In this document: positions 34,770-45,187 of the stretch, piece by piece
Layout of the letters: the number at the start of each line of letters is the position of its first letter
Position numbering within the stretch: the first letter of the stretch is position 1
Origin: a bacterium
GTDB lineage: Bacteria; Patescibacteriota; Saccharimonadia; Saccharimonadales; UBA4665
Direction: 5' to 3'
Assembly (NCBI GenBank): GCA_021848145.1
Contig: JAJZMX010000002.1
Span: 124,001-188,000 of the forward strand
Length of the DNA: 64,000 nucleotides
Program-made: the position numbers and the translations under genes
The notes under the pieces: generated by a model
Database searches by the model: none
Told to the model about the DNA's origin: nothing
What the model saw: the letters and a program-made list of their open reading frames with translations, nothing else

Positions 34770-35691
34770 CAGGGCATATGTCGAAAGTCAGCTAAGAAAA
34801 ATTGGATTTGGATCTAGCCGAGTTAATAAGGCAGAGATAAGAGAATTAGAAAATATACTTCTTCCTCATGAGAAATTGTATGAGTGCGTAAATGGTTACT
34901 ATGACGGCGGGGTCGCACTTCTAGTAGCAACTGACATAAGAGTGTTACTGATCGATAAAAAACCTATGGGCTTCTTAAACGTTGATGATGTACGTTTTGA
35001 CATGGTAAGTGATATTGATTATAGCCATCGAGTTTTTGGAGCTCAGGTCTCTATAAATTGTGGTATGCGTAGACTGAACTTTAAAAGTTATAACCAGCCG
35101 AGATTAAGAAAACTCGTGGGGCATATTCAGAATCGGATGAGTGAGATAAAACGAGAGCAATTCCAGCACGCTACTAGTCAAAAAAAACATCTTGAGGATA
35201 TTAACCGTCAACTACAAATGTACCTACTTGCCCAGCAGCAGCACCTAGAAAGGCAATTATCAATAAACAATATCAGTAAAGAAACTTCTCCTCCTAAGCC
35301 TACGCCTCATCTCGCCGATTATCTTTTCGCCCAGAGACTGTTGGAGCAATTTGAAAATGAAACTAAACCTAAAGTTTCCATAAGGCCAAGTGCTAGTAAG
35401 CCAAAGCGAGAAGCTGATTTCGAAATAGTCGAATCTAGTTCTGTTCAAAACGCGGCTGACAAGAAATTGTTAGAGGAGATGGCTGAAGCGGGAAGATTAG
35501 AGGTATACGGAGGCACAGATAAGGTCTCTCATTCATCAGAAGTAAGTGAACAAATGCCTACGATGAGTGGTGATGTTTATGGATTAGAGTTAACCCCGTT
35601 TAAGATTGCATATGCCAAACTTCCTTATTTGCTACGCAGCCGCCGTTATAAGGGAGCTACGACCACAACTCAGCGTCAAAATGCTACCTAA
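34762..35691 (+). CDS. PH-like domain protein with coiled-coil tail
   Basis: Not a named family. Residues 30-125 resemble a bacterial PH-like (YokE/bPH) domain: EKLYECVNGYYDGGVALLVATD, VLLIDKKPMGFLN, FDMVSDIDYSHRVFGAQVSI. Residues 125-180 are a Gln/His-rich coiled coil (QKKHLEDINRQLQMYLLAQQ), and the C-terminus is polar with a basic end (RSRRYKGATTT). Cytosolic or membrane-peripheral. AAGGAGGG precedes the ATG. It may act with the 40-aa membrane ORF that overlaps it. It overlaps convergent ychF by 4 bp. Confidence 0.65.
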   Translation: MVDRAYVESQLRKIGFGSSRVNKAEIRELENILLPHEKLYECVNGYYDGGVALLVATDIRVLLIDKKPMGFLNVDDVRFDMVSDIDYSHRVFGAQVSINCGMRRLNFKSYNQPRLRKLVGHIQNRMSEIKREQFQHATSQKKHLEDINRQLQMYLLAQQQHLERQLSINNISKETSPPKPTPHLADYLFAQRLLEQFENETKPKVSIRPSASKPKREADFEIVESSSVQNAADKKLLEEMAEAGRLEVYGGTDKVSHSSEVSEQMPTMSGDVYGLELTPFKIAYAKLPYLLRSRRYKGATTTTQRQNAT

Positions 35692-36770
35692 ACGTTAAAC
35701 TTGAATTCTACAATGTCATCAGGCTGCATTATGTAACTTTTGCCCTCAGTCCTGATTTTACCAGCCGCCCTACAGGCAGAAACCGAACCAAGCTCATCAA
35801 GGTCTTTATAGTTAACTATTTCAGCTGCAATAAAGCCCCTTTGCATATCGCTATGTATTTCGCCTGCGGCCTCAGGAGCAGTGGCTCCTTTTCTTATTGT
35901 CCAGGCTCTGACTTCTTTTTGTCCTGCAGTCAAAAAGCTTTGTAGCCCTAAAGCCTTGTATGCCGCAACCACAAGCGACTCAAGTCCACTTAAATGTATA
36001 TTGTAACTTTCTCTTAGTTCTTTAGCGTCATAATCCTCCAAAGTAGATAATTCACTTTCTAGCTTTACGGATATAAATAGAGCCTCTGACGGAGCAACTA
36101 GTGACTTTAGTTCTTTTTGTTTTTGTTGATCTTCTAACACATCTTCGTCAACGTTAAATAGATATATTATTGGTTTTGCGGTTAGCAGTTGTAGGTCAGA
36201 CAATCCTTCCAATGAATCATTGTCTAATCCTGAACTAACTGGCTTGCCTTGTTCTAAAAATTTTGAGGCTTCTTTAAGTAGCTCTAGTTTGGGTCTAAGC
36301 TTTGGGTTGGCCTTGGCTTCTTTTTCCGTTTGGCCAAGTCTTCGATTAACGGTATCTAGATCCGCTAATGCTAGCTCAGTTAAAATAGTATCTATGTCTG
36401 TTCTCGGGTCAACTTTCTTGTTTACATGTGTAATTAGGTTATCGCTGAACACGCGAACGACCTCTACAATTGATGAAGTACTTCTAATGTGTGCTAAGAA
36501 TTGGTTTCCTAAGCCTTCTCCTTTGCTTGCACCAGCAACTAACCCAGCAATGTCTACAAATCTTACGGTGGCTGGGGTAATCTTCTGGCTGCTATATAAT
36601 TCCGAAAGCCTTTGTAGCCTAGGGTCAGGAACTGACACTATTCCTACATTTGGGTCTATTGTGGCGAACGGATAGTTAGCTGCTAAGACACTGCTTTTTG
36701 TGAGAGCATTAAATAAGGTGGATTTACCAACGTTTGGTAAGCCAACAATTCCACAACTAATACTGCTCAT
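35688..36770 (-). CDS. ychF: Ribosome-associated ATPase YchF (OLA1 family)
   Basis: A 360-aa Obg-like ATPase that binds ribosomes and responds to redox stress. It has the P-loop GLPNVGKSTLFNALT (near 7-21), the switch region FVDIAGLVAGASKGEGLGNQFL, a coiled-coil insertion, and the C-terminal TGS domain ending YIMQPDDIVEFKFNV. The guanine-selecting NKxD is replaced by NVDE-type (YLFNVDEDVL), typical of ATP preference. The PIN toxin gene ends 6 bp upstream of its start on the same strand. Confidence 0.95.
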   Translation of the reverse strand: MSSISCGIVGLPNVGKSTLFNALTKSSVLAANYPFATIDPNVGIVSVPDPRLQRLSELYSSQKITPATVRFVDIAGLVAGASKGEGLGNQFLAHIRSTSSIVEVVRVFSDNLITHVNKKVDPRTDIDTILTELALADLDTVNRRLGQTEKEAKANPKLRPKLELLKEASKFLEQGKPVSSGLDNDSLEGLSDLQLLTAKPIIYLFNVDEDVLEDQQKQKELKSLVAPSEALFISVKLESELSTLEDYDAKELRESYNIHLSGLESLVVAAYKALGLQSFLTAGQKEVRAWTIRKGATAPEAAGEIHSDMQRGFIAAEIVNYKDLDELGSVSACRAAGKIRTEGKSYIMQPDDIVEFKFNV

Positions 36771-36776
36771 GCTTAT

Positions 36777-37211
36777 TTATAATTGACTCGATTTAATATC
36801 ATCTAGTGACTTAATACTAATTCCGTCTACCGTTACTTTTAGTAGTTCACGGTCATTAGTCCAGAACTCGGTTGCCCCTAAGCTTAATGCTGTTGCTAAA
36901 TGAATAGAGTCTATATTTTTGAGCTTTGCACCAACTTTAGCACAAAGTTCAGCAGCACTGTCCGCAATGCCTTCAGATACTTCTACGAAAGAAATAAACC
37001 CAAAACTTGATAGAAAATGTTTAGCTTTATCACCCACCTCTATAGATATTTGATAAGGTTGATGAAGAATTTCGGTCCTGGCTATGGTTGATACATATAC
37101 CGACGCTTCATCATTCTCAAGTCCTTTTAATAAGTCTAGTGCAGACTTTGAAAATGGACTGGCATCATCCAATACATAGATGAGTATATTGGAGTCTAAT
37201 GCAGAGACCAT
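36777..37211 (-). CDS. PIN-domain toxin (VapC-like)
   Basis: A 144-aa PIN ribonuclease. The acidic residues are in place: LDSNILIYVLDD (first Asp near residue 6), IARTEIL (Glu near 46), IDSIHLATALSLGATEFWTNDREL (two to three Asp near 100-118). Toxins of this class cleave tRNA or rRNA. Its ATG overlaps the stop of the AbrB-type antitoxin by one base (shared 37211), a standard type II operon. It is the right-hand neighbour of ychF and the left edge of the accessory island. Confidence 0.9.
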   Translation of the reverse strand: MVSALDSNILIYVLDDASPFSKSALDLLKGLENDEASVYVSTIARTEILHQPYQISIEVGDKAKHFLSSFGFISFVEVSEGIADSAAELCAKVGAKLKNIDSIHLATALSLGATEFWTNDRELLKVTVDGISIKSLDDIKSSQL

Positions 37212-37438
37212 TATTCCTGGTCTCTTCGGTTTCTTAGTAATTCAGCAGGGTCGCCCTTGCTAGTCCAAACCCCCCTAAGGGCACCTACATTTTGGTGCCA
37301 TATTGGTTTTGTCGACAAAACAATATCCCCGCTATCATTAACAGTAGGGTAAAGCTTCATGCCAGGCTTGATACCAGACCTTTGACGGATTAATTTAGGG
37401 ATAACAATTTGGTTTTTGCTTGAAACTGTTGTAGTCAT
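37211..37438 (-). CDS. AbrB/MazE-type antitoxin
   Basis: A 75-aa swapped-hairpin AbrB protein: TVSSKNQIVIPKLIRQRSGIKPGMKL is the DNA-binding half, followed by a toxin-binding tail (LRGVWTSKGDPAELLRNRRDQE). It neutralises the PIN toxin downstream and should repress its own operon. TACAAT lies six bases before the ATG, so the mRNA is probably leaderless. The perfect 14-bp inverted repeat just upstream is the likely operator. Confidence 0.88.
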   Translation of the reverse strand: MTTTVSSKNQIVIPKLIRQRSGIKPGMKLYPTVNDSGDIVLSTKPIWHQNVGALRGVWTSKGDPAELLRNRRDQE

Positions 37439-37442
37439 GCTT

Positions 37443-37482
37443 ATATTGTACTTTACCTAATTAAAAAAGTAAAGTACAATAT
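37443..37482. promoter_or_regulatory. Operator/promoter of AbrB-PIN operon
   Basis: A perfect inverted repeat: ATATTGTACTTTAC at 37443-37456 and GTAAAGTACAATAT at 37469-37482, 12-bp spacer. The left arm contains the minus-strand -10 box TACAAT, with TTTACT as a -35 17 bp upstream. Antitoxin binding would cover the promoter. Confidence 0.8.
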
Positions 37483-37503: not shown

Positions 37504-37640
37504 CTAAAGGATGTTGCTTCGCCTAGTTAACGATTCTATAAACCCAGGTGAATATCCACGAGTATGCTTATCGTCCGGTTCAGTAACTTAAAACTGAGTT
37601 CAAAAGGTTGGTTTGAAACATAACTATACCACAAGAAACA
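37504..37640 (-). pseudogene. Decayed C-terminal fragment, copy 1 of a three-copy family
   Basis: On the minus strand the frame reads SNQPFELSFKLL and, after a one-base shift, PDDKHTRGYSPGFIESL before a stop at 37504. Copy 2 at 38290 reads INRPFELSFKLPESDDKRTRGYSPKFIEKL in one frame, so copy 1 lost one base. It has no start or body. The parent protein family is not recognised. Bases 37534-37630 form a direct repeat with 38298-38396, bracketing the RelB/YafQ module. Confidence 0.55.
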
Positions 37641-37685
37641 GGTGAAGACATGCTTGTCATTATAACAGATGAACGATACAGCATC

Positions 37686-37720
37686 TTGACATAATAATAT
37701 ATATTTCATATACTTATTAT
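37686..37720 (+). promoter_or_regulatory. relB-yafQ promoter and operator
   Basis: TTGACA at 37686-37691, an exact 17-bp spacer, then TATACT at 37709-37714. The ATG follows after seven bases, so the mRNA is leaderless. ATAATAA (37691-37697) and TTATTAT (37714-37720) are inverted copies embracing the promoter, a likely antitoxin operator. Confidence 0.75.
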
Positions 37721-37721
37721 T

Positions 37722-38009
37722 ATGAATACAACAACTCTTCATATACCTATGGACAAAACTATACGAGAAAAGCTTGAGGCTAAGGCTAGGAGACTTGGCT
37801 TTGACTCTGCCCAGGCATATATTCGCGTGTGGGCTAAAGCAGAAGCTGAAAACCGCATTCTAAGTTTTGATGATGACGATTGGGGTGAACCTAGTGCCGC
37901 TGCCGTCAAGCGACTTAATAAAGCAGCAGACGATGCAAAGCAGGGTAAGAATGTTAGTGAGCCTTTCTACTCCGTAGAAGAAATGATGGCCCATTTAGAT
38001 AAACTATGA
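37722..38009 (+). CDS. RelB/DinJ-type antitoxin
   Basis: A 95-aa antitoxin. The N-terminal ribbon-helix-helix (TTTLHIPMDKTIREKLEAKARRLGF) binds DNA, and the acidic middle and C-terminus (SFDDDDWGEP, SVEEMMAHLDKL) should wrap the toxin. It is leaderless, with a consensus promoter. Its last bases overlap the toxin ATG by 4 bp (ATGA), ensuring coupling. The module is bracketed by two direct repeats of about 98 bp, suggesting it was gained as a cassette. Confidence 0.88.
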   Translation: MNTTTLHIPMDKTIREKLEAKARRLGFDSAQAYIRVWAKAEAENRILSFDDDDWGEPSAAAVKRLNKAADDAKQGKNVSEPFYSVEEMMAHLDKL

Positions 38010-38275
38010 AGCCAATTCGCCTAACCAAAGGCTTTGAGAAGCACTATAAGCAGAGAATTGCTCCAATCAAAAACTTAAGAGGCGTATATCTGGCTCGAGT
38101 TTCTGCTTTTCACAATGGTGAGCGTGGTTACCCTCTTGATGACCATGCCATCAAGGGTAAACTAAAAGGCAAAAGAGCTTTTAGCATAGCTGGAGATGTA
38201 AGAGTTGTTTACGAAGAAACCGATGGAGCAATAATTTTTCTAGATGTGGGCAGCCATAACCAGGTCTATAACTAA
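38006..38275 (+). CDS. YafQ/RelE-type mRNA interferase toxin
   Basis: An 89-aa RelE-superfamily ribosome-dependent mRNase. The pattern matches YafQ: LTKGFEKHYKQRIAP at the start, DHAIKGKLKGKRAFSIAGDVRVVYEE (basic strand with His/Lys/Arg), ending FLDVGSHNQVY with the His used in catalysis. It is translated from the antitoxin's ATGA overlap. A copy-2 decayed fragment lies directly downstream. Confidence 0.87.
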   Translation: MKPIRLTKGFEKHYKQRIAPIKNLRGVYLARVSAFHNGERGYPLDDHAIKGKLKGKRAFSIAGDVRVVYEETDGAIIFLDVGSHNQVYN

Positions 38276-38289
38276 CAAGTCTCAAAGTT

Positions 38290-38624
38290 CTATAGCTTTT
38301 CAATAAACTTTGGTGAATACCCACGTGTTCGTTTGTCGTCTGACTCTGGTAACTTAAAGCTTAGCTCAAAAGGTCGGTTTATTTCGTAACTATACCGATC
38401 GTTAGCATTCAACCCTACATGTAATTCCGTTATTGGTCGTAAAACATGGATACTTCCGCATATTTCTACTTTCTCCTTTGTTGCTATTACTTTATCAACT
38501 ATCTTGCGCACACAAGCTTACTATAGGCAGTAGTTTGCCTTTTCAGAGTTACCGCTATTTGCTTAACCCTAGAGACAGCCCCAGTGATAGCTTTTGCTTC
38601 ACGAACTGCCTTACCGCTTATCTA
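38290..38624 (-). pseudogene. Decayed C-terminal fragment, copy 2 of a three-copy family
   Basis: A minus-strand frame from a GTG (38511) reads KIVDKVIATKEKVEICGSI, then VLRPITELHVGLNANDRYSYEINRPFELS and KLPESDDKRTRGYSPKFIEKL to a stop at 38290. Upstream, a second frame (AVREAKAITGAVSRVKQIA, KRQTTAYSKLVCAR) runs up to it, as if one gene were split by a frameshift. No proper start or ribosome site is visible. The EKVEICGSI segment loosely recalls the last strand of serine recombinases, but I cannot confirm it. It is homologous to copies at 37504 and 43827. Confidence 0.5.
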
Positions 38625-38710: not shown

Positions 38711-40636
38711 CTAGCTTATCGTGGCTTCAATAAAACTGTGAATGGTTTGTGGCAGCTTATCAGGGTTGTTAACTCTCCGAGCGTTAGGGCGGTATAGGTG
38801 CTCTGCTTTACGTGAGCCAATACTGATGCCATACACGAACCAGCCGTCGCCGCGTAGCCTATCAATTGCTTCCCGCGCTCTATAGGAAGTGTCATGGTAA
38901 CCGTCATTACTGGCGCCATCAGATACAGCAATTAGGATTTTACGGCGGTCGGGCTCGCTAGACCAACTTTCTATTTCTTCAAGAGCCAAAAAGTCCTGAG
39001 TACTACTGCCGTTTGGATTGGCTAATGCTGCATACGTATCAAGCCGTTCCTTGGGCGATACTCTGGTAGATAACGGCTTAACGCAGGCGGCCTCATCGCC
39101 GAAGATATAGATAGCTGTACGAATATCAAGTTCCAGGTCAATCTTATGAGCGGCTTCGGCTTCTTCTACATCGCGCTGCAGAGCTGCTAATCCTTCAAGC
39201 CCAATAACAGCCGTGGAAGCGGCGTTAACTGCCTTTTCACCTTTCATAGAGTGCGAAACGTCAAACATAAATACGTAGTCAGTTTTGCCTATAGCTTGTG
39301 TTTCTCCTTTTTTGGTTTCGTAATCTTTGAAAGCCTCTGGTTCCTCAACATTATTGCGTACGTCTATTACTGTTTGTACCAATCGGTCAGGGTCTAAAAC
39401 AGCTCCCTCAGTAAACGTACGGCGGCTCAGGCCGCGCTTTTGGGCCACGCGCTCGTTAATGACGCGCTGGAAGACGTCTCGCATTTCGGCGATTGCAGAC
39501 TGCCATTTTACAATTTCAGCATTGTAACGGCGCTGCTCTTGTAGGGAGTGGCCTGTTTCATCACGAACTTTTTTGTCTAACATACGCTCGTGTTCGCTCT
39601 GTGCCGTGTGCGGTGAGTTTTTCCGAGAAGGCGAGTGCGTATGTTCTTCGGCGTGATAATGCAGCTTGTCGTGTTCTTCCTCACTCATCGGCTCGGGGTG
39701 GCGGTTTTGTTTATAGTCTTCATAGTAGGAGCCAAAGCGTTCACTATCACTTTGCTGCTCGCTTTCGCCACTTTGCGGCTGGCCTCCAGACGACTTATTG
39801 CCAGTCTGGTTTTGTTTTTCTTGCTGTCCTTGGCTTTGTTGTTGATTTCCACCATCTCCTTGGGCTTCGCCATTTTGGCTCTGGCGGTTAGGGTCTTGGC
39901 GGTCTTGTTCAATCAATCCTTCATAAACTGGATAAATAATTCTAGTCCAGATACTGAAACGCTCATCTCCACCCATTGCTTCATGGGCGGATTTAGCAAC
40001 CGCTGTGCTGTACTTAATTACGTCGCCCTGACCTTGATAATTACGTAATCCTGCAATAGCCTCATCAACTTCAGGCAGCACGGTCGTTTCGCTGTCTGGC
40101 ACCATTTCTTGGCGTATTACCTTATAAAGAAACTGGAGATGGCGCGGTATTTGGGTGTAATCGGTTTCAGCAAACAGTTTCTCCTTGTAAAGTTGTGCAG
40201 CAACACCTCTCATGCGCGGCAGAACAGCGTGTATTAAATTATTGCCAGCAACATCGGCAAATATATTATGAAAGATAGCTTGCGGCTTGCCTTGTTTAGC
40301 GAAGTTGATTATGCGTTCCGTCAGCTTAGGTTCTGTAACCTTTTCGCGGAGGTGGGCAGCTATCTCATGTAGTGTGGCGTAGCTGGTCATATCAGGGGTA
40401 TATCCCTTTTCTATAAAGAAGCCCGGGTCGGCAGTAACAACATTGCCGTCGGCTTCCAGATCAGTTGCCCACTTGTCGCCGATTTGAATGTTCAAGTCCA
40501 TACCGAACAGTCGGCTCAAGTGTGGTGCAATGTCTCGTAGGAAGGTTTCGGCCTGCTGCAGACCAGTAGCTATTTCCTCAGGGGTGGGTGCTGTTGGCTC
40601 TGGATTACCAAGCGGTAAAATGATTTTTTCTGACAT
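38711..40636 (-). CDS. VWA-domain protein with CobT-like layout
   Basis: The 641-aa protein has an N-terminal helical region with a zincin-like helix (ATLHEIAAHLREK, 87-99; HExxxH, one residue longer than HExxH) and AVLPRMRG/PRHLQFLYKV. A long Gln/Ser/Gly/Glu/His-rich linker spans about residues 265-365. The C-terminal von Willebrand A domain has MIDAS residues DVSHS at 459-463, GSST, and VSDGASND. It pairs with the divergent MoxR ATPase, as VWA-MoxR systems usually do in metal insertion or complex assembly. It looks richer in G+C codons than neighbouring core genes. Confidence 0.8.
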   Translation of the reverse strand: MSEKIILPLGNPEPTAPTPEEIATGLQQAETFLRDIAPHLSRLFGMDLNIQIGDKWATDLEADGNVVTADPGFFIEKGYTPDMTSYATLHEIAAHLREKVTEPKLTERIINFAKQGKPQAIFHNIFADVAGNNLIHAVLPRMRGVAAQLYKEKLFAETDYTQIPRHLQFLYKVIRQEMVPDSETTVLPEVDEAIAGLRNYQGQGDVIKYSTAVAKSAHEAMGGDERFSIWTRIIYPVYEGLIEQDRQDPNRQSQNGEAQGDGGNQQQSQGQQEKQNQTGNKSSGGQPQSGESEQQSDSERFGSYYEDYKQNRHPEPMSEEEHDKLHYHAEEHTHSPSRKNSPHTAQSEHERMLDKKVRDETGHSLQEQRRYNAEIVKWQSAIAEMRDVFQRVINERVAQKRGLSRRTFTEGAVLDPDRLVQTVIDVRNNVEEPEAFKDYETKKGETQAIGKTDYVFMFDVSHSMKGEKAVNAASTAVIGLEGLAALQRDVEEAEAAHKIDLELDIRTAIYIFGDEAACVKPLSTRVSPKERLDTYAALANPNGSSTQDFLALEEIESWSSEPDRRKILIAVSDGASNDGYHDTSYRAREAIDRLRGDGWFVYGISIGSRKAEHLYRPNARRVNNPDKLPQTIHSFIEATIS

Positions 40637-41037: not shown

Positions 41038-43035
41038 ATGACAGAGGAACAGATACCACCGCAGGGTTTTAACCCGAATATGATTAACGAAGTGCCATCA
41101 GAGTGGCTCAAGTTCCCTCTGCGTTATTCTCGGGAAGGCTTTACTGCACCAGAAGATGCTATCGTTACTGAATATGAGCGTACGCCTGAAGGCTACCTAG
41201 AAATTGAATGGCAATATCAAGAGGTGCAACGGGCTTTATCGTTGGATTTCAATAGCTTTACCGCGACGGCTTACAGCCGGCAACAGCTGGAGGAACTTGC
41301 CACGCCTAAAGTGGCTGAAATTAACCAGCGCCGCCAAGAAAATTCGGCCGAGCCAGTAGACGTTACTACTGTAAGTGACACTTTTCTAAGACACGTTATA
41401 CGACCAAATTGGCATGACCATATTCCAGCCGATGATAGCGAGGAGAGCCAAGCAAACTGGGAGAAATTCAAAGGCCAATTTCCTGAAAGCATTCAGATTA
41501 ACCTAGAGGAATTGCGAGAACTTGACGGCAAAATGCGGGCGCTATCCAACGATGAACAGTTAAGAACCGAAGTGCAATCGTTACATGCTGAACGAATATT
41601 AGTTATTCGGGCGGCCTCGGCATTCTTGGCTGCTGACCGTAAAGTTAATGACTTATCACGCCGCGCGGCTGAAGTGTATAGAGCAGCTGGTATCTCAAAT
41701 CGCTCGCTGACAGCTGCGGAACAACGTCATATTCAACGCTTACAGGAACAGCAGTTTCGTATTAAAGAAGCTCGCGGCCAAAAAATCACATCACAGAAAC
41801 AGCTTGGCGATGTGAGAGCAGAGCTTAGACGGCGTATAGACATTAAGCGCCGCCGTGATTTTGAGCGCGGTATTGTTATGACCGACCAAATGCAGGGAAT
41901 TATTGATGAACTGTTGCCGTCATTAGCGCAGGGTAAGCCAGCATTGCTAGTAGGCGAGACTGGTGGGGCAAAAACAGCACTAGCTGAATATATTTCACGG
42001 CAGTATTTTGGTGCCGAGCCAGAGTTTATATCTGGTTATGGCGACGTAAACAGTTACCAGGTAATGGGTAAAATGACGCTTCGCAACGAAGACGGCACAA
42101 CGGTTTCTGACTTTTTACCAGGGCCAGTAGTACGGGCTATGGAAGCTGGTAAACCTCTTATATTGGACGAAATTAACGCTATGCCCGCTGAGTTTTTGAA
42201 GCGTCTGAACAAGATTGTGCAACTTCGGCCAGGGGATAAATTTATTGTTCAAGAGGATAGTGGTCGAGAGGTAACAGTTAAGCCAGGCTTCGTAATTATC
42301 GGTACCGCCAACGAGAAATCTAAGCGATATAAAGGCGTGGAAGATTTGAGCGTAGAGTTTCAAAATCGCTTTGGAGCTAATGTGGTGCGGGTGCATTATC
42401 CAGACTACGATGTGGTTTACGGACAACCGCCTGTTGAAAATGCCGTTATCGCTAAGGCAGCTTTAACAGACCGTTCTGGCAATCTTGTGTCAGGCGTTAA
42501 TGTTGACGAATTAGAACGATTTGTGCGAGCCTGCCACGTTACTCAGCAGGTATTTAGCGGCAACTTTGGCCAAGGCTTCCGTGATTATGTATCGTCTGAG
42601 CACATTGCTGATAATAAGCCAGGGCTTGATGAAGCAGTGCTGGCTCCACGTACAATGGTGGCTTTGCTGGAAAAGGTACGCGACAGTTATGGCAAGGTAA
42701 CGCTTGAAGCAGCTTTGCAGCGGTTTGTAACAGGCATAAAGAGCGAGAATGACAAGAAGCAAATGACCCTGATATTACAGGGCTACGGCTTCTTAGGCTC
42801 AAGCGGCAGTATGCCAAACCAAGCTCACTCAGAGTTTTCATTTGACCTCTATCCAGGCTTAGATCCCGAGCTAAAAGCGGCCTATGATAGTAATGTAAAA
42901 TTTGAAACAGCTATTGCAGCACTCGCAGCTCAGGACTGGAACGTACCTAATCTGAGGATAGTTTCAAGAGATAATGCGAAAAACATATATGCGAAAAACC
43001 TATATAAGGATAACTTTGATAAGAAACTAGATTGA
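41038..43035 (+). CDS. MoxR-type AAA+ ATPase
   Basis: The 665-aa protein has a helical, charged N-terminal 290 residues without a recognised domain, then a MoxR/dynein-type AAA module: Walker A GETGGAKT (306-313), YGDVNSYQVMGKM, Walker B PLILDEINAMPAEFLKRLN and the arginine-finger region EFQNRFGAN. Such ATPases remodel targets together with VWA proteins, and the divergent VWA gene is the obvious partner. The C-terminus has a 15-bp tandem duplication (AKNIY/AKNLY) and lacks the tail seen in the two decayed relatives. No strong ribosome site is present. Confidence 0.85.
   Translation: MTEEQIPPQGFNPNMINEVPSEWLKFPLRYSREGFTAPEDAIVTEYERTPEGYLEIEWQYQEVQRALSLDFNSFTATAYSRQQLEELATPKVAEINQRRQENSAEPVDVTTVSDTFLRHVIRPNWHDHIPADDSEESQANWEKFKGQFPESIQINLEELRELDGKMRALSNDEQLRTEVQSLHAERILVIRAASAFLAADRKVNDLSRRAAEVYRAAGISNRSLTAAEQRHIQRLQEQQFRIKEARGQKITSQKQLGDVRAELRRRIDIKRRRDFERGIVMTDQMQGIIDELLPSLAQGKPALLVGETGGAKTALAEYISRQYFGAEPEFISGYGDVNSYQVMGKMTLRNEDGTTVSDFLPGPVVRAMEAGKPLILDEINAMPAEFLKRLNKIVQLRPGDKFIVQEDSGREVTVKPGFVIIGTANEKSKRYKGVEDLSVEFQNRFGANVVRVHYPDYDVVYGQPPVENAVIAKAALTDRSGNLVSGVNVDELERFVRACHVTQQVFSGNFGQGFRDYVSSEHIADNKPGLDEAVLAPRTMVALLEKVRDSYGKVTLEAALQRFVTGIKSENDKKQMTLILQGYGFLGSSGSMPNQAHSEFSFDLYPGLDPELKAAYDSNVKFETAIAALAAQDWNVPNLRIVSRDNAKNIYAKNLYKDNFDKKLD
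42974..43003 (+). repeat. 15-bp tandem duplication in the MoxR gene
   Basis: ATGCGAAAAACATAT (42974-42988) is followed directly by ATGCGAAAAACCTAT (42989-43003), one mismatch. It adds five codons in frame close to the end of the ATPase. Confidence 0.85.
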
Positions 43036-43826: not shown

Positions 43827-43943
43827 CTATTTGATGTACTTTGGCAGGTAGCCACGGGTTCTATTATCTAGAGGTAGCATAGAAAAAGTGGAGTCAAATG
43901 GTATGGTTGCGTCTTGTGCTTGCCAATATTTAATGCCGTTCAA
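43827..43943 (-). pseudogene. Short tail ORF, copy 3 of the three-copy family
   Basis: A 38-codon minus-strand ORF starts at a TTG (GGAAAGG upstream) and reads DATIPFDSTFSM, DNRTRGYLPKYIK. It matches the C-terminal pattern PFxxxFxL...RTRGYxPKFI of the copies at 37504 and 38290. Only the tail survives, so it is treated as a remnant. It closes the accessory island before the pilus operon. Confidence 0.45.
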
Positions 43944-44149: not shown

Positions 44150-45187
44150 ATGAGTCTATTAGACGGTAAGGTAGGGGACTTCTTTGGACTAGACATAGGA
44201 ACCAGTGGTATACGAATGGTTCGCTTAGCTCATCCTTCAAATGCATTACAGACTTATGCATACATGCCTATTGATACTAAAATTGCGATGAGTGATTCTA
44301 AGGCCGATGAGCAACAATTGGCCCAGGCGATAAAATCACTGGTAAGTAAATCTGGGGTTAGAACAAAAAATGTTGCGGTTGGATTACCTTCTCAAAAAGT
44401 ATTTACAACAGTGGTAGATACTGAAAAGTTAACTAAGGAGGAGTTGTCTAAATCCATAAGGCTGCAAGCTGACTCTTTAATTCCTACTCCTATAACTGAA
44501 TCAAAAATAGATTGGGACCTTTTAGGGGCTTCACCAGTAGAAAAGACAAAAGTCGAGATACTTTTGTCTAGCGTGCAGAATAGTTATGCCGAATCACGAC
44601 TAGATATGCTAGAGAGTATAGGCTTAAATGTTATTGCTTTTGAGCCTGATTCTTTGGCTCTAGTTCGAGCTCTAGTAGATCCCACATCAAATGTTCCACA
44701 GATGATATTAGATATGGGTGGATTGGCTACAGACCTCATTATAGTAATGAACGGTTCGCCTAGACTTGTTCGTTCTATACCCACTGGATATGAGGCTATT
44801 GTAAGATCAGCTATGCAAAACTTGAACATAGATGACGCACAGGCTAGGCAATTTGTTGCAAAATTTGGACTCAATCCTCAAAAACTTGAAGGTCAAATAT
44901 ACCATGCTATTAGTGGAACCGTAGACTTGTTGATGGGAGAAGTAGACAAATCAATTAAGTTTTTTTCTACCAGATATAGCGGTGCCAAGTTGGATAGGAT
45001 TATTGTGGCAGGTAGTGCAACATCTCTTCCTGAGTTTCCAGTATATTTGGCTAACAAATTTGGTGTAAATGTAGAGATAGGTAACGCGTGGCGAAATGTC
45101 TCGTATAGCCAGGACAGGCAGAATGAACTACTTGCAATATCCTCTCAGTTCAACGTAGCAGTCGGCCTAGCGGAGAGGAAAATATGA
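44150..45187 (+). CDS. pilM: Type IV pilus assembly protein PilM
   Basis: A 345-aa actin-like ATPase on the cytoplasmic face of the pilus machine. It has FFGLDIGTSGIRMVRL (phosphate-1 loop), VGLPSQKVFTTVV, ILDMGGLATDLIIVMNG (phosphate-2) and IIVAGSATSLPEFPVYL (adenosine motif). It should bind the cytoplasmic N-terminus of PilN. It is first in pilM-N-O-x-B-T-C-pilin, overlapping pilN by 4 bp. Confidence 0.93.
   Translation: MSLLDGKVGDFFGLDIGTSGIRMVRLAHPSNALQTYAYMPIDTKIAMSDSKADEQQLAQAIKSLVSKSGVRTKNVAVGLPSQKVFTTVVDTEKLTKEELSKSIRLQADSLIPTPITESKIDWDLLGASPVEKTKVEILLSSVQNSYAESRLDMLESIGLNVIAFEPDSLALVRALVDPTSNVPQMILDMGGLATDLIIVMNGSPRLVRSIPTGYEAIVRSAMQNLNIDDAQARQFVAKFGLNPQKLEGQIYHAISGTVDLLMGEVDKSIKFFSTRYSGAKLDRIIVAGSATSLPEFPVYLANKFGVNVEIGNAWRNVSYSQDRQNELLAISSQFNVAVGLAERKI

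Follow-up and report, generated by a model that had tools for sequence, protein, structure and literature searches.

Integrons are the familiar collectors of single-gene cassettes in ordered arrays. SCC/ECC elements insert at the conserved housekeeping gene rlmH using the serine recombinases CcrAB or CcrC, and in the Myxococcus phage Mx8 the attachment site lies inside the integrase gene and integration alters the integrase C-terminus. PMC6222049 treats the enterococcal cassette chromosome (ECC), and PMC11023631 and PMC8618304 treat sedentary chromosomal integrons with toxin-antitoxin cassettes. A pneumococcal prophage integrates next to ychF (PMC8637289).

The window (the whole 64,000-nucleotide stretch of DNA analyzed here) carries in front of ychF a set of repeats that we propose to be sites of a large serine recombinase (LSR) stacking toxin-antitoxin cassettes at the ychF start, a serine-recombinase counterpart of the integron. 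In the open-access literature we found no published description of such a system, whether of Saccharibacteria, serine recombinases and toxin-antitoxin genes together, of ychF as a serine-recombinase site, or of serine-recombinase cassette arrays. We consider it quite probable (about 0.83) that an LSR has built up the DNA in front of ychF as an insertion array, with the ychF start as target, exchange at a core and repeated insertion.

Organization of the region upstream of ychF

An earlier note on this DNA had described two direct repeats of about 98 bp bracketing a RelB/YafQ module. The repeats are real: positions 37534-37630 and 38299-38396 share 74 of 98 alignment columns with one gap, and the local alignment score is 74, whereas 1000 dinucleotide shuffles average 18.1 and reach 34 at most; the ungapped core of the pair is 48 nt long at 81% identity. 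The RelB-like/YafQ pair does sit between them. Both repeats had been said to encode a minus-strand tail ending RTRGYSP, and this is so for copy 2, an open frame ending KRTRGYSPKFIEKL; copy 1 reads KHTRGYSPGFIESL (KHTRGYSP) in a frame that is interrupted by stop codons and shifts along its length. The window also has a third, decayed copy. The features are as follows.

35688..36770, minus: ychF, conserved GTPase/ATPase (NCBIfam TIGR00092, 434 bits, cut-off 279)
Within 35688..36770, minus: first codons of ychF, the attachment site, MSSISCGIV/GLPNVGKS (tails lie upstream of ychF in relatives)
36744..36752, minus: recombination core in ychF, GGAATTGTT, right-hand end of the VapBC cassette (homologous cassettes stop at ychF +25/+26 elsewhere)
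36777..37211, minus: VapC-like PIN-domain toxin (Pfam PIN, 57.8 bits)
37211..37438, minus: AbrB/MazE-type antitoxin of the VapBC cassette (Pfam MazE_antitoxin, 30.4 bits; NCBIfam AbrB domain)
37443..37482, no strand: perfect 14-bp palindrome before the antitoxin gene, a candidate operator
37528..37621, minus: tail copy 1, LSR 3'-end remnant, right half site and start of the VapBC cassette (tail HMM, 9.2e-13)
37622..37630, minus: recombination core of copy 1, GGTATAGTT
37631..37670, minus: displaced 5' part of ychF (MSSPVSC..), its ATG directly preceded by a -10-like TATAAT
37722..38009, plus: RelB-like antitoxin, 95 aa (by position and partner; conserved in ychF arrays)
38006..38275, plus: YafQ/RelE-family toxin, 89 aa (Pfam YafQ_toxin, 35.7 bits, cut-off 30; NCBIfam RelE_StbE, 28.6, cut-off 27.9)
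38290..38387, minus: tail copy 2, right half site and start of the RelB/YafQ cassette, open frame (tail HMM, 3.6e-21)
38388..38396, minus: recombination core of copy 2, GGTATAGTT
38397..38511, minus: LSR gene remnant, last ~38 codons before the core (DNA identity to LSRs of relatives)
38711..40636, minus: VWA-domain protein, cargo flanked by the LSR remnant and the decayed tail (Pfam VWA, 22.5 bits, narrowly under the cut-off of 23.8)
41038..43035, plus: long MoxR/AAA-type ORF (by reading of the P-loop region only; no NCBIfam match)
43830..43934, minus: third tail, decayed, outermost edge of the insertion region (tail HMM, 1.3e-13; 82.6% to the G012 tail)

The third tail is directly beside pilM (44150-45187), and the inserted stretch therefore runs from 36.75 to 43.9 kb. 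With a PIN-domain toxin and an AbrB-type antitoxin the VapBC pair is of type II, and the YafQ/RelE assignment rests on two families, both above cut-off. The 95-aa RelB-like protein matches no Pfam or NCBIfam antitoxin family at threshold, and its role is assigned from its operon position. The LSR remnant matches C-terminal LSR coding DNA of five relatives at 75-92% identity over 49-125 bp, and that of a sixth (G009) at 72% over 150 bp. Neither the VWA protein nor the MoxR/AAA-like ORF, both situated between the decayed tail and the LSR remnant, was found near ychF in the relatives. A tail search of the whole source genome found tails only inside the window, and the three further LSRs encoded elsewhere in that genome were set aside for this reason.

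Only 6 nt separate the end of VapC from the start codon of ychF, too little for a separate ychF promoter, so that ychF probably depends on the vapBC promoter. With its 14-bp palindrome this promoter probably places a conserved gene under toxin-antitoxin autoregulation.

The repeats as proposed half sites of a large serine recombinase

A search of 100 relatives with the tail peptide revealed many genomes with several copies on the same strand, ~0.7-1.7 kb apart. Tails are present in 78 of 393 genomes of the order (46 of 156 genera) and in 11 of 380 genomes of a phylum sample, nearly all from the same class, with one weaker match outside it. All of these genomes are assemblies, many of them metagenomic, and contigs often end inside arrays. 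Searching genome contigs with the window tail alone gave no match; a scan of genome contigs with the tail alignment gave ten loci, all in metagenome-assembled records, two of them named Candidatus Saccharibacteria. We found ychF in 92 of the 100 relatives, and in every fetched contig holding both, the tails lie upstream of ychF on the same strand; in the window, the resident ychF is just downstream of the repeats.

In some genomes the upstream part of the query falls within frames of 570-590 aa that encode LSRs, and when 42 tails are lined up the right part of each proves to be the 3' end of an LSR gene. In the LSRs of G126 and G139 the Resolvase and Recombinase domains exceed their cut-offs; the zinc ribbon does so in G139 and falls short in G126 (22.5 bits, cut-off 25.3). 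The combination of these three domains in a protein of 500-600 aa identifies it as an LSR. The left half of a site is either a displaced ychF 5' end or upstream LSR code, and the halves meet at the 9-bp core GGTATAGTT. The displaced starts often consist of an ATG and the first ychF codons, such as ATGAGCAGTATTAGTTGCGGTATAGTT, and the ychF of the window begins MSSISCGIVGLPNVGKS. An ATG in the ychF frame, no more than 10 codons upstream of the tail, is present in 38 of the 53 tails with a clear core, and the other two frames of these tails give one in 3 and 3; many of these fossil starts have a TATAAT-like box just before the ATG. Several outermost tails have a start of the MSLSIG type, as in unoccupied genomes, and inner tails have an LSR-type (MLSIGIV) or MSS..SCGIV-type start, the arrangement that the insertion model predicts; many outer tails are decayed.

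A close intact LSR gene is present in 18 of the 393 genomes. Wherever the contig also carries ychF (17 of 17 cases), the LSR frame enters ychF for 35-92 nt, always in the same wrong frame; the last LSR codons thus contain the ychF start (MLSIGIV type) and the tail of ~35 residues is absent. In several genomes the missing tail is found 5-17 kb upstream, at the other end of the element. In G126 one LSR (L145:12669-14480) has its full tail in place, followed by further DNA or a further element, and a second LSR lies at ychF on another contig. This fits a later insertion that restored the tail of an earlier LSR, if the two contigs are joined as we infer.

An excisionase-like HTH_17 gene of 61-65 aa lies directly before the LSR gene in G056 and G019 (loci L034 and L049, ~1.6-1.8 kb upstream of ychF) and is a candidate directionality factor. 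The C-terminal peptides of five other LSRs in the genus, such as GLEPTTPCLKGRCSNRLSYGP and RGIEPLLPG, look as if the frame ran on into a different gene, perhaps one for a tRNA. In these bacteria it may be a general feature that the attachment site overlaps the 3' end of the LSR gene. A phage as carrier of the LSR was considered and set aside after one scan of viral contigs with the G126 LSR gave no match.

We propose that the LSR targets the first ~9 codons of ychF in the chromosome and that its own site is located within the 3'-terminal part of its gene. The order on a cassette circle would be core, LSR tail, cargo (here one toxin-antitoxin pair), then ychF promoter, ATG and first codons, and core. 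Insertion at the ychF core would place the cassette between ychF and its old 5' end, with ychF now in frame with the start codon of the cassette and under its promoter, and with the old 5' end remaining upstream, fused to the tail of the cassette. Repeated insertion next to ychF would generate an array in which new cassettes are presumably added next to ychF. Each cassette does supply a ychF start codon, and apparently the promoter as well. On an LSR-less circle the left half would resemble ychF, in place of the separate half of a canonical attP, and integration would therefore depart from a simple attP x attB exchange.

Each of the two repeats is a site-specific recombination site of a different cassette; copy 2 starts the RelB/YafQ cassette, and copy 1 opens the VapBC cassette that follows it. 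The earlier proposal that the module was inserted precisely between two sites stands in this form, although neither duplication from a single insertion nor recombination between homologous tails produced the repeats. A transposon with target-site duplication was rejected, as the repeats are unequal gene-end halves and the module is not flanked by inverted ends.

The earlier note had suggested a search of related genomes for an empty site with a single copy of the repeat, and the relatives bear the insertion out in two ways. In tail-less relatives the ychF start is unoccupied, and a divergent gene lies a short way upstream, beginning in most cases 53-200 nt before the ychF core; in the unoccupied examples that we read, this gene appears to encode a membrane- or surface-type protein, with pilM beyond. 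In G013 and G018 the RelB/YafQ cassette has only one tail and lies directly against ychF. Occurrence of the module without the repeats, which the earlier note named as a refutation, was also looked for: seven of eight close RelB copies have an adjoining tail; the eighth (G025) is at ychF, with no toxin gene found there and no tail detected.

Recurrence and reshuffling of cassettes

The intervals between cores have a median of 969 bp (n=67), and the short cassettes of ~0.75-1 kb, often in arrays, are units each bounded by a recombination site. Most short cassettes of the family to which the window cassettes belong hold one toxin-antitoxin pair each, including RelB-like/YafQ, PIN toxins with AbrB-, Phd- or ribbon-helix-helix-type antitoxins, and others. 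As a rule transcription of the pair leads away from ychF, and the toxin gene is the one beside the tail; the VapBC pairs of the window, G053 and G216 are oriented towards ychF. Outside this family the cargo is mixed and several cassettes have no toxin-antitoxin pair.

One cargo unit per site, uniformly oriented sites and toxin-antitoxin cargo like that of large chromosomal integrons could be taken to indicate an integron, with a tyrosine integrase IntI and folded attC sites. We give this almost no credence and reject it: an integron integrase above cut-off is present in none of 19 genomes of the genus, weaker matches of the same kind occur in 14 of 14 controls, and the tail strands fold no better than shuffled sequences (z of +0.86, -0.97, +0.40 and -0.37 for both strands of the two window copies).

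The RelB/YafQ cassette of the window is 94.4% identical to that of G010 over 868 bp, in genomes whose ychF genes are only 64.5% identical. The match begins 1 bp from the core and runs on into the next tail, which G010 also has. Matches to G013 (85.4%) and G018 (73.1%) end at ychF +26 and +25, since there the cassette abuts ychF. In these relatives the cassette thus stops at the core and is followed by a different tail or by codon 9 of ychF; in G044 it lies within a six-tail array. Two cassettes are common to G004 and G216 (89.4% and 83.4%, with ychF at 64.5%); their order is reversed between the two genomes, and their ends lie no more than 1 bp from the cores. Boundaries are less sharp in some pairs: of the 127 long cassette matches, the start lies within 25 bp of a core in 57 and the end in 38; many of the others are diverged pairs, or run into ychF where both cassettes abut it. 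A second RelB/YafQ copy in G018 (L221:66-699), with a decayed tail, is on another contig and away from ychF as far as that contig shows. Neither circles nor occupied and empty sites within one species were seen among the genomes compared.

Cassettes might be shuffled by homologous recombination, for example after natural transformation, through the ~100-bp tails and the ~45-bp promoter/start segments, and in some pairs the tails and left halves can indeed be aligned. However, the RelB/YafQ cassette meets non-homologous DNA at an identical base position on either side: to its left stands LSR code (G000) or a ychF promoter (G010), and to its right a tail or ychF. Joints of such unlike sequences are not accounted for by homologous recombination, which also leaves the LSR/ychF junctions unexplained; exchange between tails is ruled out as the sole cause, and we regard a principal role for it as improbable. 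The recurrence of cassettes cut at the core between non-homologous neighbors, so far as sequence comparison can tell, instead indicates site-specific cassette movement.

No intact LSR of the ychF-associated group was found in the source genus, and because its array genomes lack one we suppose that the LSR is supplied in trans by passing elements. The same finding, together with the LSR remnant and decayed outer tail of the window and the intermediate LSR fragments in other genomes, would also suit serial insertion and decay, in which the toxin-antitoxin pairs were cargo of full LSR elements that have otherwise been lost and the small units never moved alone. We think this unlikely, if less so than homologous shuffling, because the same compact cassette, without internal LSR code, recurs cut at the core in different orders and contexts, and because many cassettes share the MSS..SCGIV left half and not the MLSIGIV type borne by LSRs. 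We lean, by somewhat better than even odds, towards a serine-recombinase gene-cassette system parallel to integrons and of independent origin, in which recombinase-less minimal cassettes enter the ychF start one by one, bringing a promoter and a start, with toxin-antitoxin pairs as common cargo. On the insertion-array model the cassettes themselves would move, the LSR would act at the sites, the promoters would be active, and toxin-antitoxin addiction could stabilize the arrays.

Comparison with known systems

If this reading is correct, cassette collecting arose more than once, the gathering of toxin-antitoxin genes at one spot by tiny, host-dependent Saccharibacteria is explained, and a conserved gene has been placed under promoters brought by mobile DNA. 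The ychF start and the LSR tail form a natural integrase-site pair that is open to direct testing.

The pneumococcal prophage uses another site in another bacterial group, and no cassettes are reported for it. As in Mx8, integration changes the recombinase C-terminus, although the Mx8 integrase is of another class and the LSR here loses a tail of ~35 residues that a later insertion may return, as G126 suggests. SCC/ECC elements likewise use an LSR and a single fixed site within a conserved housekeeping gene, form composite islands in tandem and include members that lack a recombinase. The best NCBIfam match of the ychF LSR is, however, CcrB at 106.6 bits, far below the cut-off of 900, and it does not qualify as an SCC recombinase; nor is the site an SCC site, as the 5' end of ychF is targeted here and the 3' end of rlmH in SCC. 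The cassettes here are also ~0.75-1 kb with one cargo unit, and provide a new start for the host gene. With sedentary integrons the system shares an array of single-unit cassettes, toxin-antitoxin cargo that is likely stabilizing and, as we infer here, addition at a fixed end. This is a likeness in layout only: the recombinase here is a serine and not a tyrosine enzyme, a short unfolded core takes the place of attC, and the site lies in a conserved gene.
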